Part shown: piece by piece, positions 41,381-64,000 of the stretch | How the letters are laid out: the number at the start of each line of letters is the position of its first letter | Numbering within the stretch: position 1 is the stretch's first letter | Assembly: GCF_001481295.1 (NCBI RefSeq) | Contig: NZ_LOPS01000049.1 | Location: 1 to 64,000, forward strand | Length of the DNA stretch: 64,000 nt | Direction of reading: 5' to 3' | From: Candidatus Methanomethylophilus sp. 1R26 | GTDB taxonomy: Archaea > Thermoplasmatota > Thermoplasmata > Methanomassiliicoccales > Methanomethylophilaceae | Notes under the pieces: generated by a model | The model's input: the letters and a program-made list of their open reading frames with translations, nothing else | Databases searched by the model: none | What the model was told of the DNA's origin: nothing | Translations under genes and position numbers: made by a program

Positions 41381-41390
41381 ACGGAAGAAA

Positions 41391-41404
41391 GGGGCTCAGG
41401 CCCC
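41391..41404. terminator. Hairpin between convergent ZIP and cbiA genes
   Basis: GGGGC-4-GCCCC inverted repeat at the point where the ZIP gene and cbiA converge. It overlaps the cbiA stop region. Confidence 0.4.
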
Positions 41405-42783
41405 TCTCCCGCTGTCTTCTTCTATACGCCGTTCGTCCGGCCGGGCCTTCTTCACGGACCCCCACGCCTCGCATCTTCTCAGGAAGCGGTAGGGGACCTC
41501 GGGATTGGAATAATAATAGAGATGGGGGAACCCGACCGATATGTTCCCCTCCTCATGGCCGCAGTCGTAGACCTTGCCGGACGTTTTCACGCCCTTCCAC
41601 GAGCTGCCGCAGTTGGAACTGTCCCAGTAATGGAACTCATGGCCTTTGACCCCGCCGGCGATGATGGAGTCCGGATCGTCCGATGTGAGGGTGACGTAGC
41701 CGAACCTCTTCAGATGCCCCGTGTTCCTCACCTCGCCCTTCACGATGCCGGCCATCGGCCACACCTTCCCGTCGCGTCCTCCATCCTCTCGTGGAGGTAC
41801 ATGAAGCCGCCGCACTCGGCGAGGACCGGCATCCCGGCTCCGATCTTCCTGCGCATGTCCTCCAGCATGGAGGTGTTGCCGCTGAGCTCGGCGCCGTGCA
41901 GCTCCGGATACCCTCCGGAGAGGATTATGCCCTCCGCCCCGTCCGGGATGCGGGCGTCCCTCATGGGCGAGAAGGGGACGATCTCGGCCCCGCACTCCTG
42001 CAGGAGCAGGATGTTGTCGGCATAGGTGAAGCAGAACGCCTCGTCGGAGGCCAGGCCGATCCTCACCGGCCTGTCCAGCTTCCCGTGGGCGGGGGCTTCG
42101 CCGTCGATCTCCGGCGCGGTCCCGGCGATCTCGATGATCCTCCCGATGTCCAGGGACTCCTCGAGGATAGCGGCCAGCCTGTTCAGGCCGTCCCTGAGCT
42201 CCTCCACCTCGTCCGGGAGGACCAGGCCCAGGTGCCGGCTGCTGAGCACCATATCTTTCAATCTGGGTATGTACCCGATGACCTCCACTCCAGCCTCCTT
42301 CTCGATGACCGGCTTCAGCGCGGCGTAGGTCTGGGCGCTGACGTTGTTCAGTATGCATCCTTTGATGAGGTTGCTCCTGAATTCCTTGAACCCTTTGACC
42401 ACGGCGGCGATGGAGATTGCCGCCCCGCGGCCGTTGACCAGCAGGACCACCGGGGTCTGGGTCTTCTCGGATATCTCGTAGGACGAGCCGATCACGGAGT
42501 CCGTCGACCTGCCGTCGTAGAACCCCATGACCGCCTCGATGACAGAGATGTCCGTCCCTTCGGACCCGCGCACGAACAGGTAGCGGAGCGTCCCGTCATC
42601 GGTGAAGAAGCTGTCGAGGTTCCTGGACTTGGTCCCGATGACCTTCTCATGGAACATCGGGTCGATGTAATCGGGCCCGCACTTGAACGACGAGACCTTC
42701 ATCTTCCGGTTGACCAGCGCCTGCAGGATCCCGCAGACGGCGGTGGTCTTCCCGCTCCCGGACGAGGGGGCGGCGATCATCAC
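41396..42783 (-). CDS. cbiA: Cobyrinic acid a,c-diamide synthase (one frameshift)
   Basis: Amidates carboxylates a and c of cobyrinic acid using glutamine and ATP. The ATP-binding N-terminus is IAAPSSGSGKTTAVCGILQ. The central domain is followed by a triad glutaminase with the nucleophile in LAECGGFMYLHERME and a catalytic His region KGHEFHYWD. The frame shifts near 41777; joining gives MED-G-DGKVWPMAGIVKGEV. Start is GTG 42783 or ATG 42780. It lies 14 bases after the CbiJET gene. Last gene of the cbi operon. Confidence 0.92.
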
Positions 42784-42797
42784 GCGGGGACGGACGC

Positions 42798-44771
42798 TCA
42801 GTTCGCGCGCCCCCTGAAGACCGCGATGTACACGGGGTTCTGAGCTGTCATGAGGTTATAGCGGCCGAGGTGCCTAGAGCCCGCGGCGTTGATGCAGACT
42901 ATCTCCTCCTGGTCGGCCGCGCATGCCTTGGGTATCTCCAGGATCTCGGAGAGGGTCTCGAGGGTGACGGCATTGACCGCGATCCGGCAGGACGGGTTCT
43001 TGGCCAGGATGCAGGAGACGATCTCCTTCAGGTTCCCGGACGACCCGCCGATGAACGCGTGGGTGGGGGCCGGGAGGCCTTCCAGGGCCTCGGGGGCGAA
43101 CCCTTCGACGATCTCGACGTTGGGCGCTCCCAGCTTCTTCCGGTTGGCATCGATGAGCTCCGCCGCCGCTTCCTCCTTCTCCACCGCATAGACCCTGCCG
43201 CGGTAGGCCGCCAGGGCCATCTCGACCGATACGGAGCCGGTGCCCGCCCCCACATCGTAGACGACGGAATCCGGAGACAGCCTCAGCTTGGCCACGGACA
43301 GCGCCCTGACCTCGGATTTGGTCATGGGGGCGTCGCCCCTGGTGAACTCCGAATCGGGGAGGCCGATAGGGTCCCTGGTGTCGGGCTTGGGATTGAACAC
43401 CAGCGCGCAGCACAGGCTCCCCAGCTCAGCTTTCATGATGTCGGCGGGACGGCCGCTCACGAACATCTCCTCCGGGTATCCGAGGTCGCAGCCGACATCG
43501 ACCGATACGTGCTCCAGCCCGTAATCGATCAGCTGCCTGCAGACCTCCCTGGTCCCCTCGGCGCCGTTCAGTATCAGGAAGGAGACGGCATGGGTCCTGA
43601 CCTCTCCGGCCGCGTTCGCGTCCCTGCCGTGGGCGCTGACCAGGTTCACGTCCTGCCACGGGATGCCCGCGCGGGCGCACATGTACTGCACGGACGAGAT
43701 GCCGCAGTGGGCCTCGGTCTCGAACTCCTCCGGGTCCGCCTGCTCGATCATCTGCCGGGCGGCGCTGTAGAACCCGACGTCCCCGGAGCACAGCAGGGCC
43801 GTCTTCCTGTACTCGGGATGGTCCTTCAGATATGCCAGTATCTTCGGGGCGGCGTATTCCTCGAGCTTCGGCTTGCCTTCGGCCTCCGGTATGGCCAGCA
43901 TGCGCCCGGCCCCGACGACGAGGTCGCTGGAGCGGACGGCCTCGGCCGCGGCGGAGGTCAGGCCGGTCCCGGGGCCCACGCCGATGCCGACGACGGCGAT
44001 GCGGCGCTTGGGCATCCGCAGCGTGACTCCGAGCTTCTCCTCCAGGATGCGGACGGTCTCCGCGAAGCCCTGCCCCGGCTGCTCCGGGGGCCTGCCGACG
44101 AGGACGACCCTGGCCCCCGCGCGGGAGGCGGCGCGCATCTTCTCGCCGAAGCCGCCGGGGGCGCCGGAGTCCTTGGTCACCAGCCATTTGGCCCCGGTCT
44201 GCAGTAGCATACCGTAGTCGAGCTCCTCGCAGAACGGGCCCTGCATCAGGAAGATGTTCTTCCCCTCGAACCCCAGGGCCGCGCACTCCTCGGCCACCTT
44301 GGGGAGCGAGAGGACGCGGGCGAACACCCTGTTCCGGTAATCGGGTATGGCCGTGTACTCGGCAAGCTCCTTGGAACCGGTCGTGGCGAGGATGTTTCCC
44401 TCCTTATCCTTCAGGTACTCGGCGGCCTCCTTCACCGACCCCACGATGACGGCGTCCCCGGTATCGGACCCGGGGCGGACCAGCCTTATGTAGTCGGCGC
44501 CCGCCTCCGCGCAGGCCTCCTTCACATGCGCGGATATCCTCGAGGCATACGGGTGGGTGGCATCCACCACCACGGGGTACTCCTTCATCAGAGCGAGCAT
44601 CTCATCATGTGCCAGAGGGTGCGCGGAGACTTCGATCCCCTCCGCCTTCCGGACGGATGTCCTGCCGTATTCGGTGGCCACGCAGGCATGCACCTTCACG
44701 CCCGCTGCGGCCAGAACCTCTGCTATGTCCCCGCCCTCGGTGGTGCCTGCGAAGACCAGTGCCTTTGCCAT
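42798..44771 (-). CDS. cbiJET: CbiJ-CbiE-CbiT fusion: precorrin-6A reductase + cobalt-precorrin-7 C5-methyltransferase + C15-methyltransferase/decarboxylase
   Basis: 657 residues with three corrin-ring enzymes in one chain. Residues about 1-255 are CbiJ/CobK (MAKALVFAGTTEGGDIAE; VVVDATHPYASRIS). Residues about 256-460 are CbiE, a SUMT-fold methyltransferase (IAVVGIGVGPGTGLTSAA). Residues about 470-657 are CbiT, a Rossmann SAM methyltransferase with decarboxylase activity (VYDVGAGTGSVSVEMAL). The order follows consecutive pathway steps. CbiE-CbiT fusions (CobL) are well known; addition of CbiJ is unusual. No frameshift in nearly 2 kb, so the fusion looks genuine. It starts 24 bases after cbiG. 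Confidence 0.93.
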   Translation of the reverse strand: MAKALVFAGTTEGGDIAEVLAAAGVKVHACVATEYGRTSVRKAEGIEVSAHPLAHDEMLALMKEYPVVVDATHPYASRISAHVKEACAEAGADYIRLVRPGSDTGDAVIVGSVKEAAEYLKDKEGNILATTGSKELAEYTAIPDYRNRVFARVLSLPKVAEECAALGFEGKNIFLMQGPFCEELDYGMLLQTGAKWLVTKDSGAPGGFGEKMRAASRAGARVVLVGRPPEQPGQGFAETVRILEEKLGVTLRMPKRRIAVVGIGVGPGTGLTSAAAEAVRSSDLVVGAGRMLAIPEAEGKPKLEEYAAPKILAYLKDHPEYRKTALLCSGDVGFYSAARQMIEQADPEEFETEAHCGISSVQYMCARAGIPWQDVNLVSAHGRDANAAGEVRTHAVSFLILNGAEGTREVCRQLIDYGLEHVSVDVGCDLGYPEEMFVSGRPADIMKAELGSLCCALVFNPKPDTRDPIGLPDSEFTRGDAPMTKSEVRALSVAKLRLSPDSVVYDVGAGTGSVSVEMALAAYRGRVYAVEKEEAAAELIDANRKKLGAPNVEIVEGFAPEALEGLPAPTHAFIGGSSGNLKEIVSCILAKNPSCRIAVNAVTLETLSEILEIPKACAADQEEIVCINAAGSRHLGRYNLMTAQNPVYIAVFRGRAN

Positions 44772-44794
44772 GCCCCGGCATATGGGCTATCCCG

Positions 44795-45882
44795 TTAATA
44801 GGATAACGCGCGGAATGCTGGGTTGGATTGATTCTGCGGCCCCTGTCGGCGCTTCCCGAAGGACGGGGAGATCTCCTTTTCGGCAACGGCGACGGTGACC
44901 CCGTTGCCCGCCTGCTTCCGCAGGAGGAGCTTCCCGCCTCCGGCGAGCCTAACCGCCGACCTCTCGCAGACGCAGTCCACCCCGATGACCGATCTGACGA
45001 ACCCGGAGGACGAGAACTCCCCCGGGACCTCCTTCAGCTCCTCCGCGGTGTAGCAGACCAGGGGGAGCCCCCTCCTGGCGGCCAGGGATATCAGGCCCTC
45101 CTCGTCCTTCTTCAGATCGATGGTGGCGAACCCGCAGGCGGACTCCGGCGGGAGCCCAATCTTCGCGAAAGCCTCGGAGACCGCGGCGGCGATCGCCTCC
45201 TCCGGCGTCCCCCGGCGGCAGCCGATGCCAACGGCGCAGGTCCTCGGGACCAGCCTCAGCGTGGCCGGGAAGGGCTTCGCGGACGTGTCGTAGCCGATGT
45301 ACACGCCCACGGGCGCATCCTTCCCGCCGGAGAGCTCCGGAGGGACCGCCCCGCCGACGGGGATGTCCGATACCAGGCCGACCGGGGAGCCGGAGAGCAC
45401 CGCGGACGAGACGTCCTTGATGGCGCCGAGGTTCTGGACCGCCAGGCCGTTGGAGACCGCCCAGGCGTCGATGGATATCTTCCCGTTGATGTCGGTGGCA
45501 GTGGTCACGACCGGCACGGCTCCGATCTTCCGAGAGATCTCCAACGCGTACCCGTTGGCGCCCCCGATGTGGCCCGACAGGAGGGGCACGCAGTAATGAC
45601 CCAGCTCATCGATCCCGATGACCGCCGGGTCTAGGTCCTTCCTCTTCACGAACGGGGCGATCTCCCTGACGGCGATGCCGATCGCCCCCACGAAGACGAG
45701 GACGTCGTTCTCCGCGAACGCCTGCTCCGTCCACCTGCGCATGCTGCATTCGACCCTGGGGACCCCCAGGGTGTCCATGGACGTCTTCGCATGCACTTCG
45801 GCGGTCCTTCGGGGAACGCCGCCGCCACCTTCTTCGCGGTATCGCAGCCTTTGGTGCTGAACGCTATTATGCTCGCCTTCAT
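44795..45882 (-). CDS. cbiG: Cobalt-precorrin-5A hydrolase CbiG (one frameshift)
   Basis: Opens the delta-lactone of cobalt-precorrin-5A with loss of acetaldehyde in the oxygen-independent pathway. The N-terminus MKASIIAFSTKGCDTAKKVA is followed by VLVFVGAIGIAVREIAPF and PLLSGHIGGANGYALEIS. The C-terminal CbiG_C domain carries AVGIGCRRGTPEEAI. The first 30 residues are in another frame; one base is missing near 45797 (restores PPK-VHAKTSMDTLG). The start at 45882 overlaps the cbiD stop (ATGA). Confidence 0.92.
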
Positions 45883-47026
45883 TCCTTCGCCTCCACTTTG
45901 GCCAGGAGCTCCTTCGCGGACGGGGTCTCCCCGAGTATGCCGAACTCGGAGGAGAACACGACGGCCGCCGTCGCGATTGATCCCCTGACGCGGTGCTGCA
46001 TGTGGAACTCGATCTTGGGGATCATGATGTCCATAGTGGGCTTGATAAGGCCCTTCTCCGCGAGCGCCTCCAGGGCGTCGTCGGTCGAGATGCATCCCAT
46101 GATGCGCTTCGCCGTCTCCGCGTCCGCGCCGGCCATGACCGCGTTGGACGCGAGGATCTCCATCCTGGCGTCCGCGTTCCGGGAATGGGTGTTCATGATG
46201 CCGCCGGCGACCTTCACCAGTTTTCCCAGGTTGCCCACGAGGAGGACCCCCTCCGCGCCCATCTCGACGGCCATGTCCAGGAAGTCCCCTATGAAATTGC
46301 TGCATTCGACCGGCATATCCCCTTCCAGGCCGGGGTACGCCTTGGCGAAGTCCTTGCCGTAGTTCCCCGGCACCGTCAGCAGGTACTTCCTGCCCTGGGC
46401 CATGAAGACCTTCATCTCCGCCTTTATGGACCCGAGGAGCGCGGTCTCGCTCATGGGCTCCACGATCCCGGACGTCCCCAGGATCGATATGCCCCCGACG
46501 ATGCCCAGGCGGGGGTTGAACGTCTTCTTCGCTATGGCCTCCCCTTCCGGCACGTTTATGACCGCCCTCAGCCCGCCGCTGTAGCCGGCATCGGCCGCGG
46601 CCTTCCTGAGCGCATCCTCGATCATCTGCCTCGGCACATGATTGATGGCCGCGTTCCCCTCGGGCTGGTCAAGCCCCCTGCGGGTGACACGCCCGACCCC
46701 CTTTCCACCGTCGACCTCGAAACCCTCCGGGATGCGGGAGACTCGGCGCAGATCTCCGCCCCGTTGGTGTCGTCGGCGTCATCGCCCCCGTCCTTGCGGA
46801 CGGATGCACGCGCGCAGCCCGGGGCCGTCTCCGCCGATACTACTTCGACGGTCACGTCTATGCCCTTCGGCGTCGATATGCGCATGTAGGGCGGGGCGTC
46901 ACCCGTGAGGAGGAGGCGTGCGGCAGCGCCCGCCGCCGCAGCGGCCGATGTCCCGGTCGTGTAGCCCCTTCTGAGCTTCCTGCCCTCCACGTATACGAAC
47001 GCCTGATCCTCGCCGATAGGTTCCAT
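45879..47026 (-). CDS. cbiD: Cobalt-precorrin-5B C1-methyltransferase CbiD (one frameshift)
   Basis: SAM-dependent C1 methylation in anaerobic corrin ring synthesis. The N-terminal signature KLRRGYTTGTSAAAAAGAAA is unmistakable. Later segments include GISILGTSGIVEPMSE, LLTVPGNYGKDFA and VLLVGNLGKLVKVAGGIMNT. One base is missing near 46745, after which the frame reads RVSRIPEGFEVDGGKGVGRV and continues to 45879. Repaired length is about 383 residues. First gene of cbiD-cbiG-cbiJET-cbiA; the spacer 47027-47113 contains an AT-rich TATA-like stretch at about 47060-47075. Confidence 0.93.
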
Positions 47027-47113: not shown

Positions 47114-48482
47114 TCAGCTGTCGTCTTCTCCGCGGTAGATGGCTATGTATGACTCGGGGTCGCGGTAGACGCTTGGGTTCGAGACGATATCATAGACGTC
47201 CGGGAGGTTGAACATCATCTGGAAGCTAGTGCGCTTCCTGGGCTTTATGAAATCGCATTTTCTCGGGTCCGCCGCATGGCCGAGGACCCAGCACATCTTC
47301 TCGTAATCGTCGAAGAAGTACTCCTGCAGGAGGGGGATGATGTTCTTGGTAAACACCTTGGCCAGGTCATCCATGTTCCTGATGTGTATGAAATAAGCAT
47401 GACCCAGCGTATGCTCCCTGTCGTACAGGGCCTCGATGCGCTTGTTGATGGTCCTCAGCAGCCGGGAGAGGTCCACGTCCATGATCCTCATGCCCTTTAG
47501 CACGTCCGGGTCCGGCATCATCTCGACGAACTGGAACCTCCTCCTGAGAGCGGTGTCGAGCGCGGTCAGGGACCTGTCCGCGGTGTTCATGGTTCCGAGC
47601 ACGTACACCTTCTGCGGAACTGAGAACTTGACCTTCAGCTGGGGGAGGAAGACCTCGAGGCACTCGGGCATGCCCTGCCTCCTCGAGGATTCGAGCAGGG
47701 TGATCAGCTCTCCGAAGATCCTCGAGATGTTGCCTCTGTTTATCTCGTCGATGATGAAGACGCAGTTCCCCGTGTCCTCGAAGACCGGGTACTCCTTCTC
47801 CATGGAGGCGAGGAAATCCGAGGCAGTGCAGCTCAGCCGGGCCGGTGCATCGGATTCGATGCCGCACAGCGGGCCCTGCTCCCTCACGATCGCCCATTCG
47901 ACGGAGGCAGCGGTGCCGGCTACATCCTTCACGATCCCCACTGCATCGGACGAGCCGCGAGAGAACATGGAGATGACGATGTCCCCCCGGCCTTATCCCT
48001 TCCGGAAGGCATCCGGCCGGAAGGCTGCCGTCCGAGAGTGCCTTCTCCCTGGCCGGATTGGCGCCGAACCCTCCTGGGGACACCGCCCATACAGCGGCGT
48101 CCGGATCGGCGGACAGCAGGTCCTTGGGCACGCCGTCCCCGACATGCACCGGTTTCTTGGAATCGTGGCAGAAGGAATAGAACACTCCGGGGACCGGCGA
48201 GTAGATGAGCGACCCGTCGTCGCGGACCTCAGGCCTAATCCCCTCGATGAAGTCGTCGTAGCTGAGGGACTGGTGGAAGGTCATGAAGTCGATCCTCCTG
48301 ATCTTCGTGTACCGGTCGTACTTCCTCAGTGCCAGGTCGTAGCCGCCGGCGATGACGTCCTTCAGGGGCCTGCCTTCGATGATGGCCACGGCGTAGTTGA
48401 CGACGTTGTACGTCTTGCCTGTGCCCGGGGGCCCGTAGAGCAGGAGGTTGTTGGAGATCGCTTCCTTCACGTCAGCGCTCAT
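47114..48482 (-). CDS. McrB-like AAA+ GTPase with an inserted EVE/PUA-like domain (one frameshift)
   Basis: AAA+ protein of the McrB/5-methylcytosine restriction type. Walker A GPPGTGKTYN is almost at the N-terminus, Walker B is VFIIDEINRGNISRIFGELI, and sensor 1 is YVLGTMNTADRSL with the arginine-finger region DTALRRRFQF. Between Walker A and B an insert reads AAVWAVSPGGFGANPAREKAL ... GDIVISMFSRGSSDAVGIV, which resembles EVE/PUA-like modified-base readers placed in some McrB homologues. One extra base in the C6 run at 47983-47988 breaks the frame. About 456 residues after repair. No N-terminal DNA-binding domain and no mcrC nearby. It overlaps the upstream membrane protein gene by ATGA. Confidence 0.85.
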
Positions 48483-49324
48483 GCTCCGCTCTCCTCGGTC
48501 CGGACCTCCTCTGAGGCGGGCACATCCTGCGGATCGAATATCATTTCAGCGTCGATAGGCCCGTCGGAGATGACCGTCTTCCCGCTGTCGTCGATGATGA
48601 GATCGAACTTGGCGTCGAGGACCGCCTTCTTCCCGCTGAACTGATAAGAGATAGTAACATCGAACCTCCCGTCGCACAGCGAGGTCTCCTTGAACCTGAA
48701 CTTGTAGACGCTGTACCCCGGGACGGACTTGGAGCAGACCGTGAGGATAGGCAGGGTGCGGCCGTCTTTCAGGCTCAGATTGACCTCCACCTCGAAGGGG
48801 TTGGAGCCGAACAGGCTGTTGATGTAGATCTCCCCGCTGTAGATGTACCCGTCGCCGGTGAGCTTCGAGAAGCCGACCTGGCGGTCCCTGACGTACGGGT
48901 TGCCGGCGGTCGCGAATCCCTGGGACTCATAGTACCTGTCCACCGTCTTGGACAGCGATATGGCGGACACGGTCAGCGCGGCCGTCACGGCCCACATGAT
49001 CACAGCGGCTATGAACAGGGGATCGGACAGGTCTGAGAAGGCAGCCGCCGCGAACGCTGTGGCCGCGGTGGCGAGGACCAGGCAGACGGCTAACGCCGCC
49101 CTGAAGGCAACAGGGAGGCCGTTGAGATGGTTCCTTCTCGGGCAGTCGCGCTCGTCTGTGGTGACCGCCCCCTCCGATTTGTATAAGCCCACTCCGCTCT
49201 CGTTCTCCCTCCGGTACAGCAGGACGCTGTCTCCCGGAGTTATGTCCAATGCATCCATCACGCCGTTCTCGAGGACGACCCTGTTGAAGTCGTCTACCCT
49301 GCTCGTTCCAAGTATCTTCAGCAT
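48479..49324 (-). CDS. AbrB-like domain fused to a two-helix membrane protein
   Basis: 281 residues. The N-terminal 45 residues (SRVDDFNRVVLENGVMDALD then ITPGDSVLLY) match the swapped-hairpin AbrB/SpoVT pattern. Two transmembrane helices follow (AFRAALAVCLVLATAATAFAA and PLFIAAVIMWAVTAALTVSA), then a beta-rich C-terminal domain of about 130 residues and an acidic tail. Start 49324 (MLKILGTSRVDD), after GGAGG/GGAGA, is preferred over 49396, because the latter overlaps the end of the upstream gene. The stop overlaps the McrB-like start, so the pair is coupled. Family not recognised beyond the AbrB part. Confidence 0.7.
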   Translation of the reverse strand: MLKILGTSRVDDFNRVVLENGVMDALDITPGDSVLLYRRENESGVGLYKSEGAVTTDERDCPRRNHLNGLPVAFRAALAVCLVLATAATAFAAAAFSDLSDPLFIAAVIMWAVTAALTVSAISLSKTVDRYYESQGFATAGNPYVRDRQVGFSKLTGDGYIYSGEIYINSLFGSNPFEVEVNLSLKDGRTLPILTVCSKSVPGYSVYKFRFKETSLCDGRFDVTISYQFSGKKAVLDAKFDLIIDDSGKTVISDGPIDAEMIFDPQDVPASEEVRTEESGA

Positions 49325-49361
49325 ATCTCCGCCTCCGTTGCGCGGTCTGCAGCCGTCATGA

Positions 49362-52255
49362 TCATACCCTCCTGGTCTGGAGGAGCACGAAAGCAAGTGC
49401 CAGCACCGCGATCACTACTCCCAGCATCCCGACGCAAGGGCCGCCGGGTCTATCCCGCTGCCGCTGTCCTCAGGCTCTGCGCTGTACGCGGCCACGACGG
49501 CCTTGCCGTCCATGTCGGCGGTCACAGGCAGGGTGCATACCGCATCCGTCCCGACCAGGCTGCCGTCCAGCATCCAGCCGCTGAACCTGAAGCCGGTCAT
49601 GTCGGGGGCCTCAAGGCGTATCTCCGACCCGGTCTTCGCGCTTATCTCCTGCACCGGAATCAGGTCCACGGATGTCGGGGCCTGGTCTTCGGTTGCGGCC
49701 GTCACCGCCATGAACCTGGCATGCACGACCACGCTCGTCTCGGTATCCACCAGCCCGTACAGATTCACGGAAAGGAACCCGTCGAACGGGTCGGAGGCCT
49801 CGGACACCCGGTCCGTTACCGTGTAATCCCCGTAGACGTACTTCAGGCCGGCGGTCAGGGGCAGGCTGGCGGTGGCCCTGCCGTCCGACCCGGTGCTGAC
49901 CTTGGCATACTGGGTTCCGTCGCAGTAGACGGTCAGCGAGATGTTCGGTACGGTGTTGTTCCTCGTCAGGGCACCGCCTTGTGAGGCGTAGGTCACGATC
50001 TGCTTCTTCACTATCGCATGCGCAGTGTAATCCGCCCCCGAGGCCGACATATAGTACCCTTCGGAGGAGACGGACAGGCCGGTCACCGCATCGCCCTCCC
50101 ATCCCAGGATGCTGAACCGCAGGCTGCCGCCGTCGGAGGTGAAGGAAGCCCTGTGGCCGGCGCCTGAGACAGTGTAAGCGAACAGGGCCTCTGCTCCGGA
50201 CGGGAGCCCCGAGACCGTGTACGCTCCGATGGCTGAGGGGACCGCCCTCTCGAAGGACGAGGGGACCGCGGACACCTCTGAGGAATACGTGAAGTCCGCG
50301 AAGGCGGCAGCCGTCGTGAAACGGTCGTTGCTGAAAGCATACCCATCGACGGTTGCCCAGGTGACGGTCGCCGACGTTCCGGCCTTCACATAGAAGGAGA
50401 AGGTGCCGTCGGACGCCGGAACGATGAGGTCCGCCATGCTGGACTGCGATGCCCCGTACGATACGGCTGCGGATGCTCCCTGCGGCATGGTGCCGGCGAG
50501 GGTGCCGGAGCATTTGTATGCCGCATCATCCGATGCCAATGCGACCCCTGTGAAGGTCCCGGAGAGGACGGCGGTGCCGTTCTTCCCGGAGGCCAGGTCG
50601 GGTATGCCGGACGGCGAGGAGTCAGCAGCTTTTATGTCGGCGACCGAGAACGAGTACACGTCCCTGGGGGACCCGGCCGTGAACCCGGCGAACGAGATGA
50701 CGAGGTATGCTGCGCATCCTGACGGCAGGCCGCTCGGGACCTTGTAGACCACCGAGGTCAGGCCGCCGGCGCCGGTCGGCCCGACAGCGGCGGCATGGCC
50801 GGCGGCGATGGCAGTCGATATGGTTGATGGATCATCGGTTATCGCATACGGGCTGCCGCTCCCCGTCTGATAGTACCAGACAGCCGATACCGTCGCATCC
50901 CTGAGAGGGCGTCCATTGGAAGATTCCGCGGAGACGGATACAGACGACTCAACGGCGGTCAGGGCAATCTCTGCGGAGGACGAAGGCGACCACAGAACGT
51001 TCCCCTCGAGAAGGCTCGACGGGAACGGGCTGCCCTCAGTCTTCGGAAGGCCGTCGAGGATCCCTCCGTCGCCGTCGTTGGCCTGGAAAGTATAGATGCT
51101 TCCGCTCACGGCGCGGACATAAAGGTACACCGTATCCCCCTTCGGGACGGTGTACGATATCCCGGCCCTGCCGGAGCTGTCGGTGGCGGATATCACAGAG
51201 CACATGCCGGATACGGCCGACTTGTTGTACATCGACGGGTCGTCGGAGGACGCGTTCTGTATGAGCCATACGGCATTGATTTCCACGCCTGCCGCCGGAA
51301 CGCCCCCTGCATCCGAGACAGTGACCCAGAGGGTCTTCTCGGAAGCGCGCACCTCGGGAAGCGCAGTGTCCGAGATCGCCGTGCCGGGCTGCGGGATGTA
51401 TGGGAACGTGTACCCGCTGCAGGACACTGAGGTCAGAGATACCGTCGATCCCTTCGGCACTCTGAACGAGAAGGATCCGTCCGATGCTGTGCTGACGGTG
51501 CCGGTATCGGTCCTTCCCCCGGCCGATGCGTAGGAAACGGATGCGCCTTCGATCGCGCTCCCGGAGGCATCGGCGACGGTCCCCGATACTTTGACGAAGT
51601 CCCTCGCGAAGAATGTCTGGGCCGAGATCGAATATCCTCCGGACTCCACTTCTGCGGAATAGGTGCCGGAGACCGAGCCTGTGCGGATATCGCAGCTCTC
51701 CGATGAACCGACCGTGAATATGCATGCATGCTGCATGGCAGTAGACAGGGGTATCCCCCCGCCGACGGTCACGGAGGCACGGTCACTGCCTGAGATCTCC
51801 GTCTGCACCCCGTCCTTCTCGACGGCTACTGTCGCGGATGCTCCGTACGACGATGTGAACATTACCTGGAGGATCGCGAACCCGTCGGAGCTTCCGAGAC
51901 CCAGGCGGGCGCGTATGTCCCCCCTGATGTCCGACAGGGATGCGCCGGTCTCAGAGTAGGTGAGGATGCTGCCCGCCGAGGAACCGGATGACAGGCCGTA
52001 CCAGAACCCCTGATCGGATAACGTCCACTCCTCGGGCTCCAGCGACCTTGGCAGCTTCTCGTTCATGTAGGCGAGGGACCCATAGTCCTCCGAGTCCTGG
52101 TCGTAGACATCGACTGACAGCCCGCCTACGGCGGCCGCCTCCGATCCCTCCGCCGGGAAGAGCGCCAGGACCAAGGCCGCCGATGCGATGACGACCGCGG
52201 CCGCAACGGCCGCGCGCTTCCATGCTGCTGACATATGGTTCTGCATCTGCATCAC
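49362..52255 (-). CDS. Secreted, membrane-anchored protein with carboxypeptidase-regulatory/Ig-like repeats (3' frameshift)
   Basis: About 960 residues. Signal peptide: AAWKRAAVAAAVVIASAALVL after a basic start. Several beta-sandwich modules follow, such as VSGTVADASGSAIEGASVSY with DGSFSFRVPKG, then similar repeats (KTLWVTVSDAGGVPAAGVEI; SSNGRPLRDATVSAVWYY). The given frame ends in ASGCWE at 49415. Shifting by one base near 49435 yields VGMLGVVIAVLALAFVLL plus basic residues and a stop at 49362, a classic C-terminal membrane anchor. It starts 3 bases after the adhesin stop (GAGGTG before ATG). Confidence 0.75.
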
Positions 52256-52258
52256 ACC

Positions 52259-55200
52259 TCAGGACCTCATCCTCGCGACGATTACCGCCGCGCACACGAA
52301 CACTGCCAGCACGCCGGCCAGCACCCAGATCAGGCTCTGGTCGACCTTCTCGAACTCCGGGGATATCACTATGTCCGAGTTCACCGTGCCGCTGGTGCGG
52401 TTCCAGCCCTCGAAGTGGTACCCGTCCTTGGACAGGGATGCCCCGTCCCAGTCGGAAAGTATCTCCTTCAGGTCCGATGAGCCGTCGACCGTCTTGGTGT
52501 AGACTCCGTCAGCGACCGTCCAGTCGGAGGGGGCGCCGGAGACGGAGACCCCGGACAGGTCCAGGCTCACTCTGCACTGGCCGGCCTTCCATACGGCGTA
52601 GAAGGTGATTATCCCTCCTGCATCCGCATTGGACGCCAGCCCCTCGGTGAACTTCGTCACCGATATGGCGGAGTTGCTGTCGCCGCGCTCCAGGGACCAG
52701 CCGACCGCCGACTTGTTGCCCATCTTTCCGAGAACGGAACTGTCGGCCAGGGATATCTGGTCGCCCACAGTGTAGACGCTGCTGTCCACAGGCGGGTCGG
52801 CCGTTCCCCCGTTGGCGTCGTAGACGATCGTGTAGCTGATCGGGGTCCAGACGGCATCGAACCTGACCGTCTCGCCGCCGGACACGGACAGGTTCTTGAA
52901 GTACGTGCCGTAGGCGAGCGACAGGTCGCCGATCCTGTTCCAGCTGGACCCGTCCGTGCTGACCATGGGCACAGCGGAGGACCCGGCGCCGGTTATGGAC
53001 CATCCGGCGAACTCGTAACCGCTCCTGGTCCCGGGGACCAGCATGGTCGGCTCGTCGTACTGGGCGGTGATGGACCTGTAGCTCTGGGTGTCCCTGTCCC
53101 TGTACTCGATGGTGTAGCTCGCCGGGGTCCAGGAGGCGTAGAGGACGAACTTGTCCCCCGAAGAGGGCGCCATCTCGCGGGTGAACGCCGTTCCGTCCCT
53201 CAGGACGGCGGTGTCGCCGACGTTCAGGACCCAGCCTGCGAAGGCGTACCCGACCCTGGAGGAATCGGAAGCGACCGGCAGGGTGAGGGTCTGGCCGAGG
53301 GAGATCATGGTCTGCCTCAGCGTGTAGGTGCCCTCTCCGCCGTTCCAGTCGACGGTGATCGCATAGGTGGCGCGGGACCATGTGGCCGTCAGCTTGACCG
53401 TCTTCCCGGGATCGTCGGTGAGGTTGAGGAACACGGTCGCTGCGACCGCGCCGCCGGACCATCCGCGGAACCCGGACTCGGTCTTGTACTGAGCGTGCAC
53501 GGAGAGGTCGGACGAGGTCCATCCGGCGAACACGTACCCGCTCCTGGACGGAGCGTCTATGTGGACCTCGGAGGCGTACTCCGCGGTCCTGGGGGTGCTG
53601 CTGCCCGCAGTACCGTTGTTCAGGTCGTACTCTATGCCGTACGTCTGCCTGTCCCAGACAGCGTACATCACGATCTTCCCGTCGTTCCCGTGCCCTGCGA
53701 CGGCAAGGGAGTCGTCGAGGGTCGTCCCGGTCCAGGGGGCGCCGCCCTCGTAGTACGACCATCCGCCGAAGGTGTATCCTGCCCTCACGATCTCGGACTC
53801 GCCCGGGGCCCACAGGGTTATCGGGTCCCCGTAGGCGTAGTAGGAGGTGTTGGGCATGGTGCCGATCACCATTCCGCCCGAGAGGTTGTAGCTCAGGGCG
53901 AAGGAGATCTCGTTCCAGATCATGGAGAACGCGATGACGTCGCTGTTGGCGTCGCCCACGGCCGCGAGCTCCGCGCCCACGGTGAACGCGGCGCCGCTGG
54001 CTATGGTCTGGCCGCCGGCGGTCCAGCCGCCGAACCTGGTGTGGATGTTGAGGGTATAGTCCCCGATGCTCCAGATGGATGTTCCAGGCTGGCCGTACAC
54101 GGCCTCCATGTCGGGGTAGTTCGCCTTCACGGCGTTGGCCTGGGTCTCGCTCATGCCTGTAGTGTCGACGGAGACGGTGTAGGTCTTGGAGACCCAGCTT
54201 ACGGAGAGGATCAGCACCCTGTCCGATGCGAAGCTGTCGATCATCTGCTTGGTGAGCCTGAAGTCGGAGACGTAATGCTCGTCGCCGACCGAGCCTGAGA
54301 TCCCGGTCCAGTACCAGTAGCCGACCTTGTGGCCGGTCGGGGCCGATACGGCCGGGAGCTTGACGCCGTGCTCGTCGCTGTCCACGATGACGCCGGTCAG
54401 GTCCGCAGGGGCCTCTCCGGTGTAATCCTCGCCGAGGCTGAACCTGACGGTGTACTCCACCGGCTTCCAGGACCCTTCCATGGTCAGGTAGCACATGTCG
54501 GCCGCAGCCGCCATCTCATCTGTCAGCTGGTACTGGTAGTTGGGCATGAACAGGCCGTCGATCCCGAGGATCCTGTAGCCTTCGAACGTGTACCCAGTCT
54601 TCGTGTAGGTGCTCAGGAAGGGCACCACGGTGAAGTAGCCTCCCACCCTGCAGGATGTGGTCGCCGGAACCTTGTTCCCGGCGTCGTCGTTGATGCTGTA
54701 GGATATCCAGTATATCCCGCTGTTCATCAGGAAGGTTATCTCCGCATCGCTCGACGAATCGCTGAAGATCGCGTACGTCACAGAGGTTATGGCCGTCCCT
54801 CCGCAGAACGCCTTGTTGAGGGAGTACATGCTGTGCAGGGGCGTGGGCACCGCGAATCCGGCGGCGACCGCCGAATACGGGATGCTGTCGATGACGTCCC
54901 CGTCCATGTACTTGTTGTCCGGGATCTGCGTTCCGGCGCGCTTGTGGATGCCGTACTGGGTCCATCCGTTCATCTCGAACTCCGTCCCGGAGATGGTGGC
55001 GCCCGAATCGGAGAACCTGACGGTGATCGAGAACTGCCTCTCCTCGAACGTGACCTCCACCGAGATGTTCTTGGTAAACGTCTGGCCGGTGGCCAGCTCG
55101 GTGAAGTCGGTGGTGTTGAAGTAGCCGATCACCTTGTAGCCGACGGTCTTCAGGGAGATGTCCCTCCCGGAAGGATAGGTGTCGTCGGCGCACACGAGCG

Positions 55201-58200
55201 TGAGCCCTGAGGCCGGGTCGCTGCCGACGGTGAACGTGAACGGCCCTCTCACCGTCACGGGGCCGGCACCCTGGATGTGGTCCCCTGTGAAGGTAATCGT
55301 GTACTCGATGGAGCTGAACTTGGCGGTGTAGGTCTGGCCGGCCACGAACTTGGACGTTCCGGGCACGGCCTTGATGCCGTTGCTGTCGTACCAGCCTTCG
55401 AAGCTGTATCCGTCGGCGGGCACCTCCATGCTCTTGAACAGGTTGTAATCGGCAGGGTTCTTGAAAGAGGACCTCTCGCCGAACACGTGGTCGTAGTAGA
55501 CGCTGACGGCCGTGCCGGGGGAATCTCCCTTCGCGATGGTCACGGTGACCTCCATGTCCTCGGAGACGAGCTCGAACCTGTCGAAGATGTACCCGGCGCG
55601 GACCGAGGAGGCGGACGCGTCGAGATAGAACACCTCGCTTCCCCTGTAGATGGCCACGCTGAGCACCACGAGCTTGTCGTTGTCGAACTCGGGAACCGCC
55701 ATCAGAGATCCGTAATGGGCCGTCTGGGACAGCGGCGAGGTGCCCTCGCTGGACGTGATGGTGAAGGTAGCATCGCCGGCGTCCGAGACATTGCCGGTGA
55801 ACACCACCGGGACGTTCTTGGACAGGGGGTAGACGGGGACGGCCATACCGGACCTGGCCGTGATGCCGCTGCTGAAGTCGCTGTCCGAAGCGTACACCTT
55901 GATCGTGCTGCTCGCTCCGACCATGGTGAAATAGTAGTCGGCGGACGCGCCGTACGGCAGCACGATCATGCCGCCGTAGATGGCCTTGTAAGTCTCCTGC
56001 CCGGCGGGCAGGAGGACGGACACAGTGGAGCTGACCTCCTGCACGAAGGTGAAGGACCCGGAGAATGCGGACCTGCTGTCGGAATCGGCATGCACGGTGA
56101 CGGACATCCCCGGGCACGGCACGATCGAGGCCGCCATAGCGGAGTTCGCAGTGCCGTTGAACCAGAACGCCGCCGACGCGGTACCGGGTATGCCGGTGTA
56201 ATCGAACGCCCCCTCTCCTATGGAGGTCACGGACGCAGCGATGTAGACGGTGCTGAGAGGCGAGTTCCGGAAGGCATAGGCGCCGATCGACGTGAGAGAG
56301 TCGGGAATCACAGCAGACCTCAGGGAACCGCATCCCTCGAAGGCGCTCTCGCCAAGATAGGATGTTCTGGGGCCGAGGGTCACCGAGCGCAGCGCAGTAC
56401 TCTCGAACGCATGACCGCCGACAGAGGTTATCCTGATGAATGGGTTCAGGCCGGTCCCGGAGTTCAGCGATGAGAGCGTGACGCATCCGGAGAACGCATA
56501 ATCGCCTACGGAGGTTGCAACCGGGGCGCTGACAGATGCCAGAGCCCTGCATCCGTAGAACTGGTACGGAGCGATGGCCTTCGCCGCGGGCATCTCGGCC
56601 GAGACCAGGGACGTGCATCCGTAGAACGTGCCGTCGCGAACGTCTCAGCAGAGGTCATGACGACCGAGGTCAGCGCGGTGCACCCGTGCAAGTCTGCGAG
56701 GAACGAGACGGCCGCAGGGACGCTGATGCTCTGGAGCATCGGCACCTTGCAGGGATCGGAAGACGCCGAGCTGTTGAAGAGGTTCGCAGGCAGGGACTTC
56801 AGCGAGGGCGACGAGAAGGCCGTCAGGGAAGTGCATCCATAGAACGCATAATTCCCGACGGACTCTATGCCGCCCGATGTCCCGACGGTCACCGTCTTCG
56901 CGCCGGTCTCGGCGAACGCATAGCTGCCAATGTACTCGGCCGAAGAGAGCGCGTATGCTCCGGAAGCGTTGACCGATGTCAGAACGGAGCACCCGTAGAA
57001 CGCGAAGTCTCCCACCAACTTGAGGGCCGGCATAGTGACCGACCCGAGGTTGATGCACCCGCCGAAGACGGCGTACTTCGATGCATCGGAAGCCGAGACA
57101 GGAACGGAGACCTCCGTTCCGATGCTCTCAGCCGATTCCAGGGTGAGGGATACGAGCGCGGTGCATCCGGAGAATGCCAGCGCGCCCACCGACACCGCGG
57201 ATCCGGCCGTCACCGACGAGAGCACGGAGCATCCGGAGAACGATCCCTCCGGTATGCCGGTGAGCCCGGCGGCGGAGAAGGATTCCAGGGAAGCGCAGCC
57301 GCTGAAGGCGTAAGCTCCGAGGGATACGGTCCTGTCGGAGAAGGCTGCAGACTGCAGCGAGGCGCAGCCGTCGAAGACATATGTCCCGAAGGACGCAGCC
57401 AGCGGCATTGTTCCAGACGTGATGGATGTCAGACCCGACCCCGCGAAGGCCCTGTTCCCGACGGTCGCGGCGGCAGGGGCGGAGAAGGACGTGAGCGAGG
57501 CGCAGCCCTCGAAAGCGCTGGGCGAGATGTATTCGCTGATGCCCAGCACCACGTTGTTGAGGGAAGAGCACCCGTAGAACTCGCGCCCGTTCTGGAGCAG
57601 GAGGTTGGCCCTGTCGAGGTTGATGGTCTCCAGCGACCTGCAGCCCTCGAACATCGATGCAGGCAGGGTCAGGGACCTCGTGGACCCGCTTATGAGCGTC
57701 ACCTTGGCGAGCGATACGCAGTTCTTGAACTGCCCGGCCTGGCCGAGAGTGGTCGCGCCCGATATGTCGACCTCCTCCAAGTCGCTGAAGCCGCTGGACA
57801 TGTCCATGGTGAACCTGGTGACGGTCGGGATGATTAGCTTCTTCAGCTTTGTAGCAGAATGCGATCCCGCCGCCATGAACGTGGCCGACGGGAGCTCGGC
57901 TATGGTCCCGTAGACCTTCAGGGACAGCAGAGAAGTGCAGCCCTGGAAGACCTTATCTCCCATAGTCAGAGAGGCGCCGGAAGACCCAAGGACGACGTCC
58001 GTCACAGCAGAACCTGCGAACGCACCCTCGCCGACCACCCTCACGCCAGTCAGGCTGACGGTGTTGTCGGACGAGTTGATCTGCTTGATCCCGCTGTTCC
58101 TGAAGGCGTACTTCCCGATCTCGGTGCAGTTGCCGAAGGTAGCAGAGGAGAGCTTGGCGCATCCGTCAAAAACGGATTCCCCGACCTTGGTCATGGAGGG

Positions 58201-61200
58201 CAGGGAGGCAGACAGCATGGAGGAGCACTCGCTGAACGCGGCGGTGCCTGCCGTGAGCACCTGAGGTCCGGAGACCCCGGTCATACCGGTGCAGCCGCAG
58301 AACGCCTCCTGGCCTATCGAAGATACGGAATTAGGGAGAGAGACCGTCCCGGACAGACCGGTGCAGTCCCTGAACGTGCGTGTTCCTATGGATATGACGC
58401 CGTCTGCCACCGTCAGCGAGATTGCGTTGCTCTTGCTGTAGTACCACGGGGTGGTGATGTAATTATCCTCGGAATAGTCGCAGCCGCGCACGTAGCCGGT
58501 CAGCGTTACCGAAGTTATCCCGGTGCAGCCTGAGAAGCTGGGCGAGGAACCGCCGGCCGTGTTGAGGTCCGCAGGAATGCTGAGGGCCTGTATGCCGGAG
58601 CATCCGGTGAACCCGCCGTCCCCGATGCTGAGGACGCGCTCTATGGTCAGGGCGGAGATGTTCTTGCATCCGGCGAACGCATAGCTGCCTATGCTGGTGA
58701 TCGATCCCGGGATTACTATATTCCCCGAGAGGCTGGCACAGTCGCGGAACGCGTTGTCCCCGATATGATCCACAGTGTGGGCGAAGGACATGCTGATGCT
58801 CCTTCCTGAAACGCTGCTGATGTACCAGGGGGTGTTCTTGTAGTTCTTGTTCTGCGCACTCGGATGGTCGAGGTAGTCCACGCCGGCAGTTCCGGTGAAG
58901 CTGACCTGCGTTATCCCGGTGCATCCGCTGAATGCAGGATTGCCGTCGTCACAGACGGAGTTGACATCTACCGGAAGCGTAAGGGAAGCTATGCCGGTGC
59001 AGCCTGAGAACGATCCGCTGCCCAGGGCCGTGTCGGTCCTGGATATCGTGAGGGCGGTCAGGCCGGTGCATCCCTCGAAGGCGTGCGCACCCACCGATTT
59101 CAGAGCGGAGGACAGGGACAGGGGGCCGGTAAGGCCGGTGCAGCCGTAGAACATGCTGTCGCCTATCGAAGTCACAGATGATGCCAGGGAAAGGCTCAGC
59201 GTACCGTCCTGGAAAGATACCACGGAGTGAGGGTGCGGGCGCTCCCGTCCGACAGTTCGGAGTAAGCATATCCGTCCGTGCCGGTGAACGCTAAGGATGT
59301 GACGGATGCGCATCCCTCGAAGGCAGGGGATTCGGCCGATACCACCGTGTTCATCCCGATCGGCAGGGACATGGACCTTACCGATGTGCACCCGGCGAAC
59401 GAGGATTCTGAAACCGCCGCGCTTCCGCTGAGGACCAGGGAAGTCAGGCCTGTGCATCCATCGAAGGCATGAGCTCCGATCGGGATCGACAGGGACAGCG
59501 TGCCCTTCAGGGCGGTCAGGCCCTTGAACGTGTAGGCGCCGACGGAGGCGGAGGAACCGAAGTCCACGGCCACCGATGAGGCGGTGCTCATGTGCCAGGG
59601 AGTGAGCGCATAGTCGCTCTCGCTGTAGTCGTGCCCGGCGCCGGAGCCGGTGAAGACGACCGACGTTACCCCGGTGCATCCGCTGAATGCGGGGTCCGAC
59701 GGGTTCCCGACGGAATCGGCGGAGATGGGCAGGGAGACCTTCGAGATGGACGTGCATCCCCTGAAGGCCCCGTCGCCCAGGTCGGCCAGGTTCCCGCCGA
59801 GCATGACTGTGTTTATGCCTACGCAGGACCCGAACGCCTCATCGCCTATGGAGGTCACGTCCGTCAGGGACACGGCCCCGGCGCCGTTGAGGCTGGCCAG
59901 CGCGGTGCAGCCGTAGAACGCCTTGCTGCCTATGGTGGACAGGGCAGGGGCGGTCACGGAGGCGAGGGCGGTGCATCCCTCGAAGACGCTCGACCCGAGC
60001 GAAGAGGCAGCAGGCATGCTGATCGACCGCAGGGCGGTGCATCCGTAGAACACGCCGTCGGCGAACGACTGGGCCGACTGGGCATTGACGTTCGCCAGCT
60101 TGGTGCATCCGTGGAGGTCGGCATCGAAGGTGACCACAGAGGGCACGGAGATCGAGACGAGCTCCGGGGTCAGGACGGCCGTCTCCTTCCCGACGTTCCC
60201 GAACAGGCCGGCCGGCAGGTCGGTGATCCCGGGCGCAGAGAAGGAGGTCAGGCTGGCGCATCCGTAGAACGCCATGTTTCCGACCGTTCCGGAGCCGATG
60301 TCCGCGGAACCGAGCACGACCTGCTTGGCGCCGGTGCCGGCGAAGGCGGCGAAGCCGACGTTCCGGACCGAGGAGAGGTCCATCTTAGATGTTGAGTTGA
60401 ACAGTACCAGATGGTCGCATCCGTAGAAGGCCATCGGGCCCACGTCGGTCAGGACGGGCATCTTCACGGAGGCGAGGGCGGTGCATCCCAGGAACACGGC
60501 GGGCGTCGTGTCCTCTTCCGTGTCTATCTCTGATATATCGGAAGTTATCCCCACGCGGACGGCCGCCGGCATCTCCAGCGAGGCGAGCCTGTAGCAGTCG
60601 GAGAACGCTCTCTCGGCGATCGAAGCGGCCGCAGGCACGGACACCGATGTCAGAAGGCTGCATCCGCGGAGCATCTCCGCAGGGATCGCCTGGAGCCCGG
60701 GCGCGGAGAACGAGGTCAGGGCGGTGCATCCGCGGAAGGCTTCCGATCCGGAGGATTCGGTCGCAGCGGGCAGGGACACGGTCGCCAGGGATGTGCATCC
60801 GCTGAACGCCCCTGCGCCCAGCGACTGGACCTCCGGGAACATGCTGTCGGATACCGACTGGAGCCCCGATGAGGCAAAAGCGCGTGCCCCTATGGATATG
60901 GCCTGAGGAGCGCTGAAGTGGATCAGGGCGGTGCATCCGAAGAACGCCTCCTGGGAGACAGAGGGCGACATGGTGAGATCGGCAGTGTCCAATGAGGTGC
61001 AGCCGTAGAACTCGCGGCCGTTCCTGAGCTCCGCCTTCTCCAGATTCACGATTGAGAGGGACGTGCATCCCTCGAACATCGACTTGGGCAGGACAACGGT
61101 GCTGGACGAGCTGGCATCGTTGAACAGGACAACGGTGACGAGCGCAGTGCAGTTCTTGAACGTGCCCTCGGTGGACCCGAAGCTCGTGGTCCCGGATATA

Positions 61201-64000
61201 TCCACAGCTGTAAGATGTGAGAAACCGGACAGAGTGGCCGAGAACTGGTTGGCATGCCTGACATTGAGGGTTGTGAGCATTGATTCGAAGGCCGATGACC
61301 CAGACAGGGTGCTTGTCTTGAAGTCGCTGATGGTGCCGTCGACCGTGAGCGACATCAGCTGGGCGCACTCCTGGAACGCGTAGTTCCCGATGGTGAGGGC
61401 GGTGCCCTCCTTCCCGACGGTGACGTTGATCACTCCGGAATGCTTGAAGGCGGAGTTCCCGAGAGAGGTCACCTCTGTGAGAGACAGCGTTGATGAGCCG
61501 TTGAACAGGGAAAGCGACTGGGTCTCAGCGAAAGCGCTGTTCCCGATGGATGTCAGGGTCCCGAGTGTGACACTCGTGAGACCGGTGCAGCCCTCGAACA
61601 TGGAATCAGGGACAGATGTCATCCTCGGAAGGTCGGCCGATGACATCGAGGTGCATCCCTTGAAGACGGCTGTCCCGGAAGTGGTCACGGATTCGCCGGT
61701 AACGGCGGTGAACTTGGTGCAGTCCTGGAAGGCGCCGTCGCCGATCGATGTGATCCCTGAGAGGTTCAGGGTGCCTCCGGTGCCGGTCAGCTCGGTGCAT
61801 CCGGCGAACATCTTGGCTCCGATCCTCTGGACGGAGCTCTCGACGGTCAGCACGATAGAGTTGTTCCTGCTGTAGTGCCAGGGAGTATAATCGGAGTTGA
61901 TGAGGTAGTCATACCCGACAGTGCCGGTGACTGTCAGCGCCCTGATACCGGTGCATCCCCTGAATATAGGTCTGGCAGTGTTGCCGACAGTATTGAAGGA
62001 CACCGGGAAGGCGAGATTTCTGATGCCGGTGCATCCGTCGAATGCTCCGTCGCCCAGCATCGGCGACCCTTTGATCTCCAGCGAGGTTATTCCGGTGCAT
62101 CCGGAGAAGGCGTACTTGCCTATGCCGGCCAGGTTGGAGGGTATGGAGAGAGCTCCGCTGATGCCGGTGCATCCGGCGAACATGTAGCTGCCGACGGACG
62201 TGACCGTGGGAGCGAGAGTGAGGCTGATGCTGTTGGCCTTGCTGTAGTACCAGGGAGTGCGATGATAGTCCCCGTCTCCGGAATCTGAATATGCGAATCC
62301 GGAGGTTCCGGTGAACGTGATGCTGCGGATGCCGGTGCATCCGTCGAAGATAGGCGCATCGGAACTGCCTGCGGCATTGAAGGATATGGGCATCGAGAGG
62401 TTCCTGATGCCGGTGCATCCGGAGAAGGCTCCGGTGCCGACATCGATGACCGAGTCTCCGACGGTGAGCGCCGTCATGCCTGTGCATCCTCTGAACGCGT
62501 ACGCGCCGATGTCCGAGATCCCGTCCAGCGACACCGATGTTACCTTGGCGCACCCGTCGAAGGCATGCGTCCCGATCTCGGTGAGACCGCTCGGGAAGAA
62601 TATGCTCCCGCTGAGGCCGTAGAACGATGACCCGCTGGACGACCAGCATCCGGCGAACATGTAGTCCCCTATGGACTTTACCCCGGTGAAGGAGACAGAG
62701 ATATCCCTGCTGGTACAGCTGGCGCGCCACGGGGTGCCAGCAGCGCTGCTCTCATCGTAATCGAACCCTTCTCCGAAGGACGACCCGGCAGTGAACGCGA
62801 ACGTGTGCACGGGGCAGTTCTCGAACATGGACGAAGTGTATTTCAGGCCGATCGGAAGGGTGAGTGACCTGAGTGCCGTGCATCCGGCGAACGCGCCCTC
62901 GGCGATGGTCTCCACCGAATCCGGAACGGTCAGGCCGGTCAGGTTGGTGCAGTTCCCGAAGGCATTGGAACCGATGGACTGCAGGCCGCTGTTGAGGGCC
63001 AGAGCGGACAGCGGAGCTCCGCTGAAGGCATACTGGCCTATGCTGCGGAGCGTCGACGGGAACGTAACGGTGTTCGCCGCATTGAGGTACGAGTAGTCCC
63101 CTATGGACACGATGCCCTCATCCAATATGAGCGTGTATCTGGGACAGTTGTGCCAGAACAGATTGGCGCTCGAGGATGACGTGTATGCTGCGCCCTCGCC
63201 CGTTCCCGGAGTGAACCGCAGAGTGGTGATGTGCGTGTTCGAGCTATTGGTTCCGACATCCATCTTGAAAGAGATGGGAACGGTCAGGTTGGTCACTCCT
63301 GAGCAGTTGTAGAACGCGTTGCTCCCGGCGGACTGAAGCCCATCCGAAAGGGTCAGCGTTGTAATCTTGTTGCAGTTGTAGAACGCGTTCGCCCCGATCT
63401 CCCTGACGCTGTCGGCAAGGGTGACTGAGGTTATCGATGCACGGTTCACGTCGTTGCGGTAGAACATGTACGGGTCAACGGCTGTGACACCGTCCTCGAA
63501 CGTGACTGAGATCTGCCATCCCGAATAGTTCCACCAGGACCACGGCATCGATCCCCAGTTCGACAGATAATAGTTGGTGGCGAGGGCCGAGGCCCCGTTG
63601 CCTGTGAAATGGAACTCCGAAATGCGTGTGCCGGTGTCGAAAACAGCGTGAAGCTGGACGCTTATGGGGACCGTCAGTTTGGTTATCCCGGGGCATTCGT
63701 AGAACACGTTGTTGTTCTGATTCACGGTGAACAGCGTCGCCGCCGTGCTCTTCACGACGACTGAGGTTATCCCGGAAGATCCCCTGAAGGCGTTAACGCC
63801 AACCGAAGTCAGGTATTCGGGCAGCACGACCTCTCCCGTGATGGAAGAGTGATAGAATGCCGACTTGTAGATCGTGTTGACCGTATCCGGGATGATGAGT
63901 CCGTTCTTCACCATCTTGGCAGGGCAGATCATCAGTACATTGACCGACTTGTCGTAGAGGATCCCCTCGACAGTGGTATAGGACTGATTGGAGCTGTCCA
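52259..64000 (-). CDS. Giant BspA-like / InlB-repeat surface adhesin (partial at the right edge; two frameshifts)
   Basis: At least 3,900 residues; the N-terminus lies beyond 64000, where the frame is still open (VEGILYDKSVNVLMICPA). From the right edge to about 56000 it consists of BspA-like leucine-rich repeats (LRR_5) with units such as VTSIGDSMFYGCTGLTGPLS and IGSYAFAGCKNIS. From about 55500 to 52500 at least six InlB-type (Flg_new/Listeria-Bacteroides) repeats follow, each ending in FxGWxx (for example YVFAGWTSS, YTIVYDANGG). The C-terminal membrane helix is LIWVLAGVLAVFVCAAVIVA with a basic tail. Frames shift near 59215 and 56635. Gut methanogens use such proteins at the cell surface; a binding role is inferred. 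Confidence 0.87.

Follow-up and report, generated by a model that had tools for sequence, protein, structure and literature searches.

A gene unit found in several genera of the order Methanomassiliicoccales combines an McrB-type AAA+ motor (McrB*) and an McrC homolog (McrC*) with membrane proteins and giant surface proteins. Because the nuclease residues are lost, the AAA+ site and the finger arginine of McrC* are kept, and the membrane and surface neighbors are conserved, we conclude that the unit encodes an McrBC-derived, nuclease-free, membrane-linked motor associated with giant surface proteins. Its anatomy, as read from sequence, appears to retain the motor features of McrBC and to drop those of a restriction enzyme. 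The initial annotation had suspected that this was no ordinary restriction system on the grounds that McrC was missing; that basis fell away, but the suspicion itself is strengthened, since McrC is present without its nuclease residues.

The window, meaning the whole 64,000-base stretch of DNA that was analyzed, is C49:1-64000 of a 69,515-base contig from genome G000 (1.72 Mb, 83% complete). On re-reading of the coordinates, the cassette of four same-direction minus-strand genes described for it was confirmed, with intergenic gaps of 3, 37 and -4 bases. The gap of 3 lies between the stop of the LRR adhesin at 52259 and the start of the secreted protein Sec at 52255; the gap of 37 presupposes a Sec reading with a transmembrane (TM)-anchored end at 49362; and the overlap between mcrB and copy 1 of AbrB-TM, a membrane protein with an AbrB-like N-terminus, is an ATGA. 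The four genes stand, but the cassette extends past 64000: the adhesin continues to C49:66766, and ahead of it lie McrC*, another AbrB-TM and a three-TM protein, TM185 (Table 1). The adhesin starts 13 bases after McrC*, at the contig end of the window strain, giving the order TM185, AbrB-TM copy 2, McrC*, LRR adhesin, Sec, AbrB-TM copy 1, McrB*. These are the same unit genes as in relatives, reshuffled, yet all still together. Two more AAA_5 matches lie on the plus strand at 4374-6716 of the window.

Table 1. Features of the cassette and its continuation in the window strain; positions are those of the window unless prefixed with C49.
Feature	Position	Strand	Remarks
mcrB*	47114..48482	-	AAA+ McrB motor, 455 aa read through one extra base at 47983; AAA_5 E 1e-14
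Six-base C run (G run on minus strand)	47983..47988	.	mcrB frame break; five bases in G035
McrB* variable insert, ~110 residues inside AAA+ domain	47780..48140	-	absent in G044; no family match
AbrB-TM copy 1, 281 aa	48479..49324	-	AbrB-like N-terminus, two TM helices, C-terminal beta-sandwich
Sec, secreted, C-terminally anchored	49362..52255	-	964 aa in G035; window ORF 49415-52255, frame break near 49433
Giant BspA-type LRR_5 adhesin with Listeria-Bacteroides repeats, C-terminal TM	52259..64000	-	continues to C49:66766
McrC*	C49:66780-67835 if TTG start (TTGA overlap) correct	same strand as cassette	PF10117 match at C49:67023-67679
AbrB-TM copy 2 (paralog)	C49:67832-68665		beyond window edge
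TM185, 3 TM	C49:68714-69271		beyond window edge

That the McrB motor lacks McrC was refuted by a PF10117 search of its own genome: the one McrC homolog returned (E 8e-43) lies 2.8 kb past the window edge, on the contig and strand that carry the cassette; an McrC homolog likewise belongs to the unit in all eight genomes with the whole locus. The PD-(D/E)xK nuclease residues of E. coli McrC are D244, D257 and K259 (PMC6624300). In our alignments this D...D-x-K set is absent from 8/8 McrC* and kept in 5/5 canonical McrC, drawn from the same order and from Bacillota, and Pfam coverage ends at positions 226-278 of 318 in McrC*, versus 318 in canonical McrC. An AlphaFold model of McrC* (pLDDT 77.5, with a low-confidence finger stalk) has McrC structures as its sole significant structural matches. 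An invariant arginine of McrC* aligns with R263 of TgMcrC and K157 of EcMcrC, the basic residue that stimulates the McrB GTPase (PMC7680126), and the finger thus appears to retain the arginine that triggers GTP hydrolysis. McrC* also appears to be under purifying selection, C-terminal domain included: dN/dS is 0.15-0.39, with dS near saturation, and constraint on the C-terminal domain is roughly equal to that on the remainder. The conserved C-terminus of McrC* shows the pattern APGYR.IP...MAGSYL. McrC* is therefore best described as a putative pseudo-nuclease, in which the nuclease was apparently lost and the protein retained.

McrC* forms a single clade (support 100/100) in a tree that places genomes of different genera together and whose deeper branching is unsure, two of the canonical rows being long-branched. 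NCBIfam labels McrC* as McrC, at a sub-threshold score only. Wider searches returned members of Methanomethylophilaceae and a few more distant McrC homologs matching the N-terminal part alone; those examined at full length (L031, L040 and L041) are canonical.

McrB* matches McrB in NCBIfam and in the PDB (PDB E 1e-64), and its Walker A, Walker B, MNTAD[RK]S motif and arginines are invariant in the eight aligned members, so that it seems to keep a full AAA+ site. In every member ~10 residues precede Walker A, and an N-terminal modified-base recognition domain is absent from all aligned McrB*. An internal insert is poorly conserved and absent in G044; it sits where the bacterial McrB of L040 and L041 have an insert. 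Those two loci (L040:5714-10295 and L041:7203-11134) are bacterial McrBC pairs whose McrB has a long N-terminal region plus an AAA+ insert at the archaeal insert position. No family was matched in a Pfam search with the window and bacterial McrB inserts, and no solved structure in a PDB search with the bacterial insert from L041. By motif the McrB* insert resembles an EVE/PUA-like domain, but given these negative searches we claim no identity for it.

The complete genome G035, from the same species as the window strain, carries the 3' part of the cassette and shares 19.6 kb of sequence with the window. Although mcrB in the window occupies two frames because of one extra G in the G run at 47983, the G035 gene is intact, encoding 455 aa that are 99.6% identical to the read-through window copy. 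G035 Sec is also intact (964 aa); in the window its frame breaks near 49433, and the TM-anchored end lies in another frame, to 49362. The adhesin breaks near 56.5 kb, at 59.2-59.8 kb and at ~65.9 kb (the last beyond the window), all outside the region shared with G035, so that the comparison covers only mcrB, Sec and neighboring genes. Among the latter, cobalamin-biosynthesis genes (cbiD-like and cbiG-like; window 44795-47026) differ from G035 by single-base indels that break their frames, and this points to a general indel problem in the window contig. Since the G035 copies are intact and single-base differences also occur in these cobalamin genes, errors of assembly or sequencing are the most likely cause of the window's frame breaks, and the mcrB frameshift is probably an assembly error. 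We considered and rejected a decayed locus, given the invariant McrB* motifs, the invariant McrC* finger arginine with apparent purifying selection, and the intact sibling mcrB.

G035 is itself without C49:52887-69318 (16.4 kb): the missing stretch takes in TM185, AbrB-TM copy 2, McrC* and the greater part of the adhesin, and PF10117 has no match anywhere in this complete genome. Sec, AbrB-TM and McrB* survive the deletion intact, while McrC* and the adhesin are naturally knocked out. At G035:C1 ~1525429, the clean 16.4-kb deletion joins the unit's upstream leader to the C-terminal part of the adhesin. Window and G035 are >98% identical over the cassette and ~90-92% identical over the adjoining 7 kb, mostly cobalamin genes (window 40000-47000). 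This 7-kb block is sharply bounded and flanked on both sides by >98% identity, a mosaic that suggests recombination beside the cassette.

Across 147 genomes of the order, ten have a match to McrC*; eight of these are full-length McrC*, and two (G091 and G094) match the N-terminal part alone, G094 being canonical. The unit is collinear, in the order TM185, Sec, AbrB-TM, McrB*, McrC*, giant LRR adhesin, in G114 (goat abomasum MAG), G115 (sheep colon MAG), G024 (MAG AS21) and G044 (MAG RUG10898), and G036 has the same order with the adhesin interrupted by a transposase-like ORF. The genes of these five genomes run in one direction with short gaps or overlaps, at 50-65% protein identity. An identical 333-aa transposase-like ORF occurs twice in G036, at L027:10555-11556, where it splits the adhesin, and at L028:6352-7353, past a neighboring 3,571-aa surface-protein ORF. 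Other loci are partial or divided. G096 has AbrB-TM, McrB*, McrC* and the LRR start on one contig and, on another, the end of a giant LRR gene followed after 4 bases by TM185; G074 holds the AbrB-TM, McrB*, McrC* trio without an adjacent adhesin or Sec, and with TM185 elsewhere; and G042 has TM185, Sec and AbrB-TM up to a contig end.

AbrB-TM stands directly before McrB* in 9/9 loci holding McrB*, McrC* directly after McrB* in seven genomes, and full-length Sec matches are confined to genomes with AbrB-TM (8/8); the unit genes cluster phylogenetically, so the counts do not represent independent events. Eleven genomes have TM185, nine of them together with AbrB-TM; in the other two (G045 and G046) it lies near contig ends. 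The proposal that the AbrB-membrane gene is a conserved neighbor of McrB in related genomes thus held in every such locus, but its corollary, adjacency without mcrC, did not, all eight whole loci having an McrC homolog. The tie to surface proteins was also upheld, in most genomes holding the unit.

AbrB-TM was annotated as an AbrB-like membrane protein. Its two TM helices are borne out, and its AbrB-like N-terminus is supported by a profile link to free-standing MazE/AbrB proteins, which match PF04014; 1/9 AbrB-TM members matches PF04014 itself, weakly (E 0.01). A low-confidence model predicts a beta-alpha-beta-beta N-terminus, two TM helices and a beta-sandwich. A fold search with this model returned nothing significant (best E 0.017, filamin Ig domains), and a scan of viral contigs for AbrB-TM relatives found none. 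Copy 2 (L012:7833-8666) is 18% identical to the window copy and immediately precedes McrC*, an arrangement that might give each McrBC subunit in the window strain an AbrB-TM partner of its own.

Both proteins annotated as cell-surface proteins proved to be so by their features. Sec has an N-terminal hydrophobic segment, a C-terminal TM segment in G035, and CarboxypepD_reg/Big_1-like matches that are all below cut-off. The adhesin matches LRR_5 (E 4e-181) and Flg_new, the Listeria-Bacteroides repeats (E 2e-29), and carries its LRR_5 repeats and C-terminal TM anchor as a BspA-type LRR surface protein does. N-terminal hydrophobic segments, C-terminal TM anchors and basic tails recur in the Sec and LRR proteins of relatives. 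The unit's adhesins are membrane-anchored LRR proteins of ~5,000-7,000 residues; single intact ORFs encode 6,247 aa in G024 (L025/L033) and 7,055 aa in G044 (L076/L077), very large for archaeal proteins. Domain-family searches, including NCBIfam and PADLOC, recognized no nuclease family in the unit's other proteins.

Our main reading, to which we give a probability of about 45%, is that the unit is a domesticated, nuclease-free McrBC machine acting at the cell surface. McrB* would form a hexamer, which McrC* would plug and stimulate to hydrolyze NTP, as in restriction McrBC. The remodeled C-terminal domain of McrC*, in place of the nuclease, would link the motor with AbrB-TM and TM185 at the inner face of the membrane. 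There the motor may assemble, release or gate the adhesin and Sec, in the way that AAA+ chaperones of the MoxR type bring dedicated membrane complexes to maturity. We infer both the link to AbrB-TM and the effect on adhesins, and remodeling or controlling a surface apparatus would most likely be the unit's role. At somewhat less than even odds, we propose that the entire McrBC GTPase machine, beyond McrB alone, was turned from restriction into a dedicated membrane-bound motor for building or controlling giant adhesins, the McrC nuclease becoming an adaptor. Three observations tell against a surface role: the G074 trio has no neighboring adhesin or Sec, so that AbrB-TM, McrB* and McrC* may act alone; G035 keeps McrB* and AbrB-TM intact though McrC* and most of the adhesin are deleted; and the AbrB-TM model is of low confidence.

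An antiviral system with a changed effector could also account for the unit, McrB* and McrC* sensing invading nucleic acid and AbrB-TM and TM185 responding, for example by depolarization or abortive infection, with the adhesin and Sec as a surface barrier or accessory. The McrBC ancestry, the patchy, strain-variable and apparently recombining locus and the adhesin-free trio of G074 fit such a system, and CoCoNuTs provide a known example of inactive McrC combined with replaced effectors (PMC11090510). We nevertheless regard it as unlikely: McrB* has no recognition domain N-terminal to its motor and its insert is variable, to the point of absence in G044, while PADLOC and NCBIfam gave the unit's membrane proteins no defense assignment and the SLATT match of AbrB-TM copy 2 is insignificant. 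Ordinary DNA-cutting restriction, which McrB and McrC homology and fold would favor, is highly implausible given the loss of nuclease residues in 8/8 McrC*, the absent N-terminal recognition domain and the lack of any recognized substitute nuclease.

Regulation offers another account, in which the AbrB domain, tethered to the membrane, would bind DNA close to the operon and be released under the control of either the McrBC* motor or the envelope's condition, so that the surface genes are turned on or off. The profile link to MazE/AbrB proteins and a predicted single transcription unit with the target genes are in keeping with it, but AbrB domains also have non-DNA roles such as partner binding, and a large GTPase motor would be an odd regulator; we think this decidedly unlikely. 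We give still less credence to the view that trio and surface genes form separate units whose association is due to chance or to joint carriage on one exchanged island. The lone trio in G074, the sibling deletion in G035 and the mixing of genera in the McrC* tree could be read that way; the tight, unidirectional collinearity of five genomes at 50-65% identity, the cohesion of the G000 genes after reshuffling and the 4-base spacing of TM185 from the giant LRR gene in G096 all speak against it.

McrBC is known as a DNA-cutting defense. Here selection appears to maintain the motor and its activator, with the cutting part lost, no substitute nuclease recognized, and steady membrane and giant-surface-protein neighbors. 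If confirmed, the domesticated surface machine would clearly exemplify the recruitment of an entire restriction motor to cell-surface work. It would also hint at the means by which host-associated methanogens handle adhesins reaching 7,000 residues, a task that may shape their contacts with gut partners. A literature search for a link between McrBC and surface proteins in these archaea found no description in the library searched.

The unit shares with the McrBC type IV restriction systems of E. coli and Thermococcus gammatolerans an AAA+ McrB with Walker A and B, MNxxDRS and arginines, and apparently the McrC finger fold with its basic GTPase-stimulating residue; it differs in that McrC* is without nuclease residues, McrB* without an N-terminal recognition domain, and the genes are embedded among those of membrane and surface proteins. 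In CoCoNuTs, which are reported to be nearly absent from archaea, McrC with an inactivated PD-(D/E)xK is always accompanied by HEPN or other nucleases and McrB carries an NxD motif; CoCoPALM McrBC is associated with factors for surface (pilus) assembly and with membrane segments (PMC11090510). Inactivated McrC homologs recall the former, and the tie to surface factors and membrane segments the latter. Unlike CoCoNuTs, however, the unit has the McrB* signature NxxD (MNTAD[RK]S) and no recognized HEPN or other nuclease, and McrB* has no extension able to hold a CoCoNuT-type long coiled-coil fusion.

McrB-family co-option outside restriction has a parallel in PcdA of Staphylococcus, which has two EVE domains, a degraded motor and no McrC (PMC10602043), whereas here the Walker motifs appear intact and McrC* is present. 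MoxR AAA+ chaperones such as NorQD and RavA-ViaA (PMC9976466, PMC3893208) have a related AAA+ architecture (AAA_5) and membrane targets, and offer a model for how the unit might work; they pair with VWA proteins, whereas no VWA match was found among the unit's proteins and the partner is McrC*. BspA-type LRR and Listeria-Bacteroides repeat proteins have been described in gut Methanomassiliicoccales (PMC7883539), and the unit's adhesins have the same repeat domains in host-associated archaea. Against this background, we would describe the unit as a new form of McrBC-derived system.
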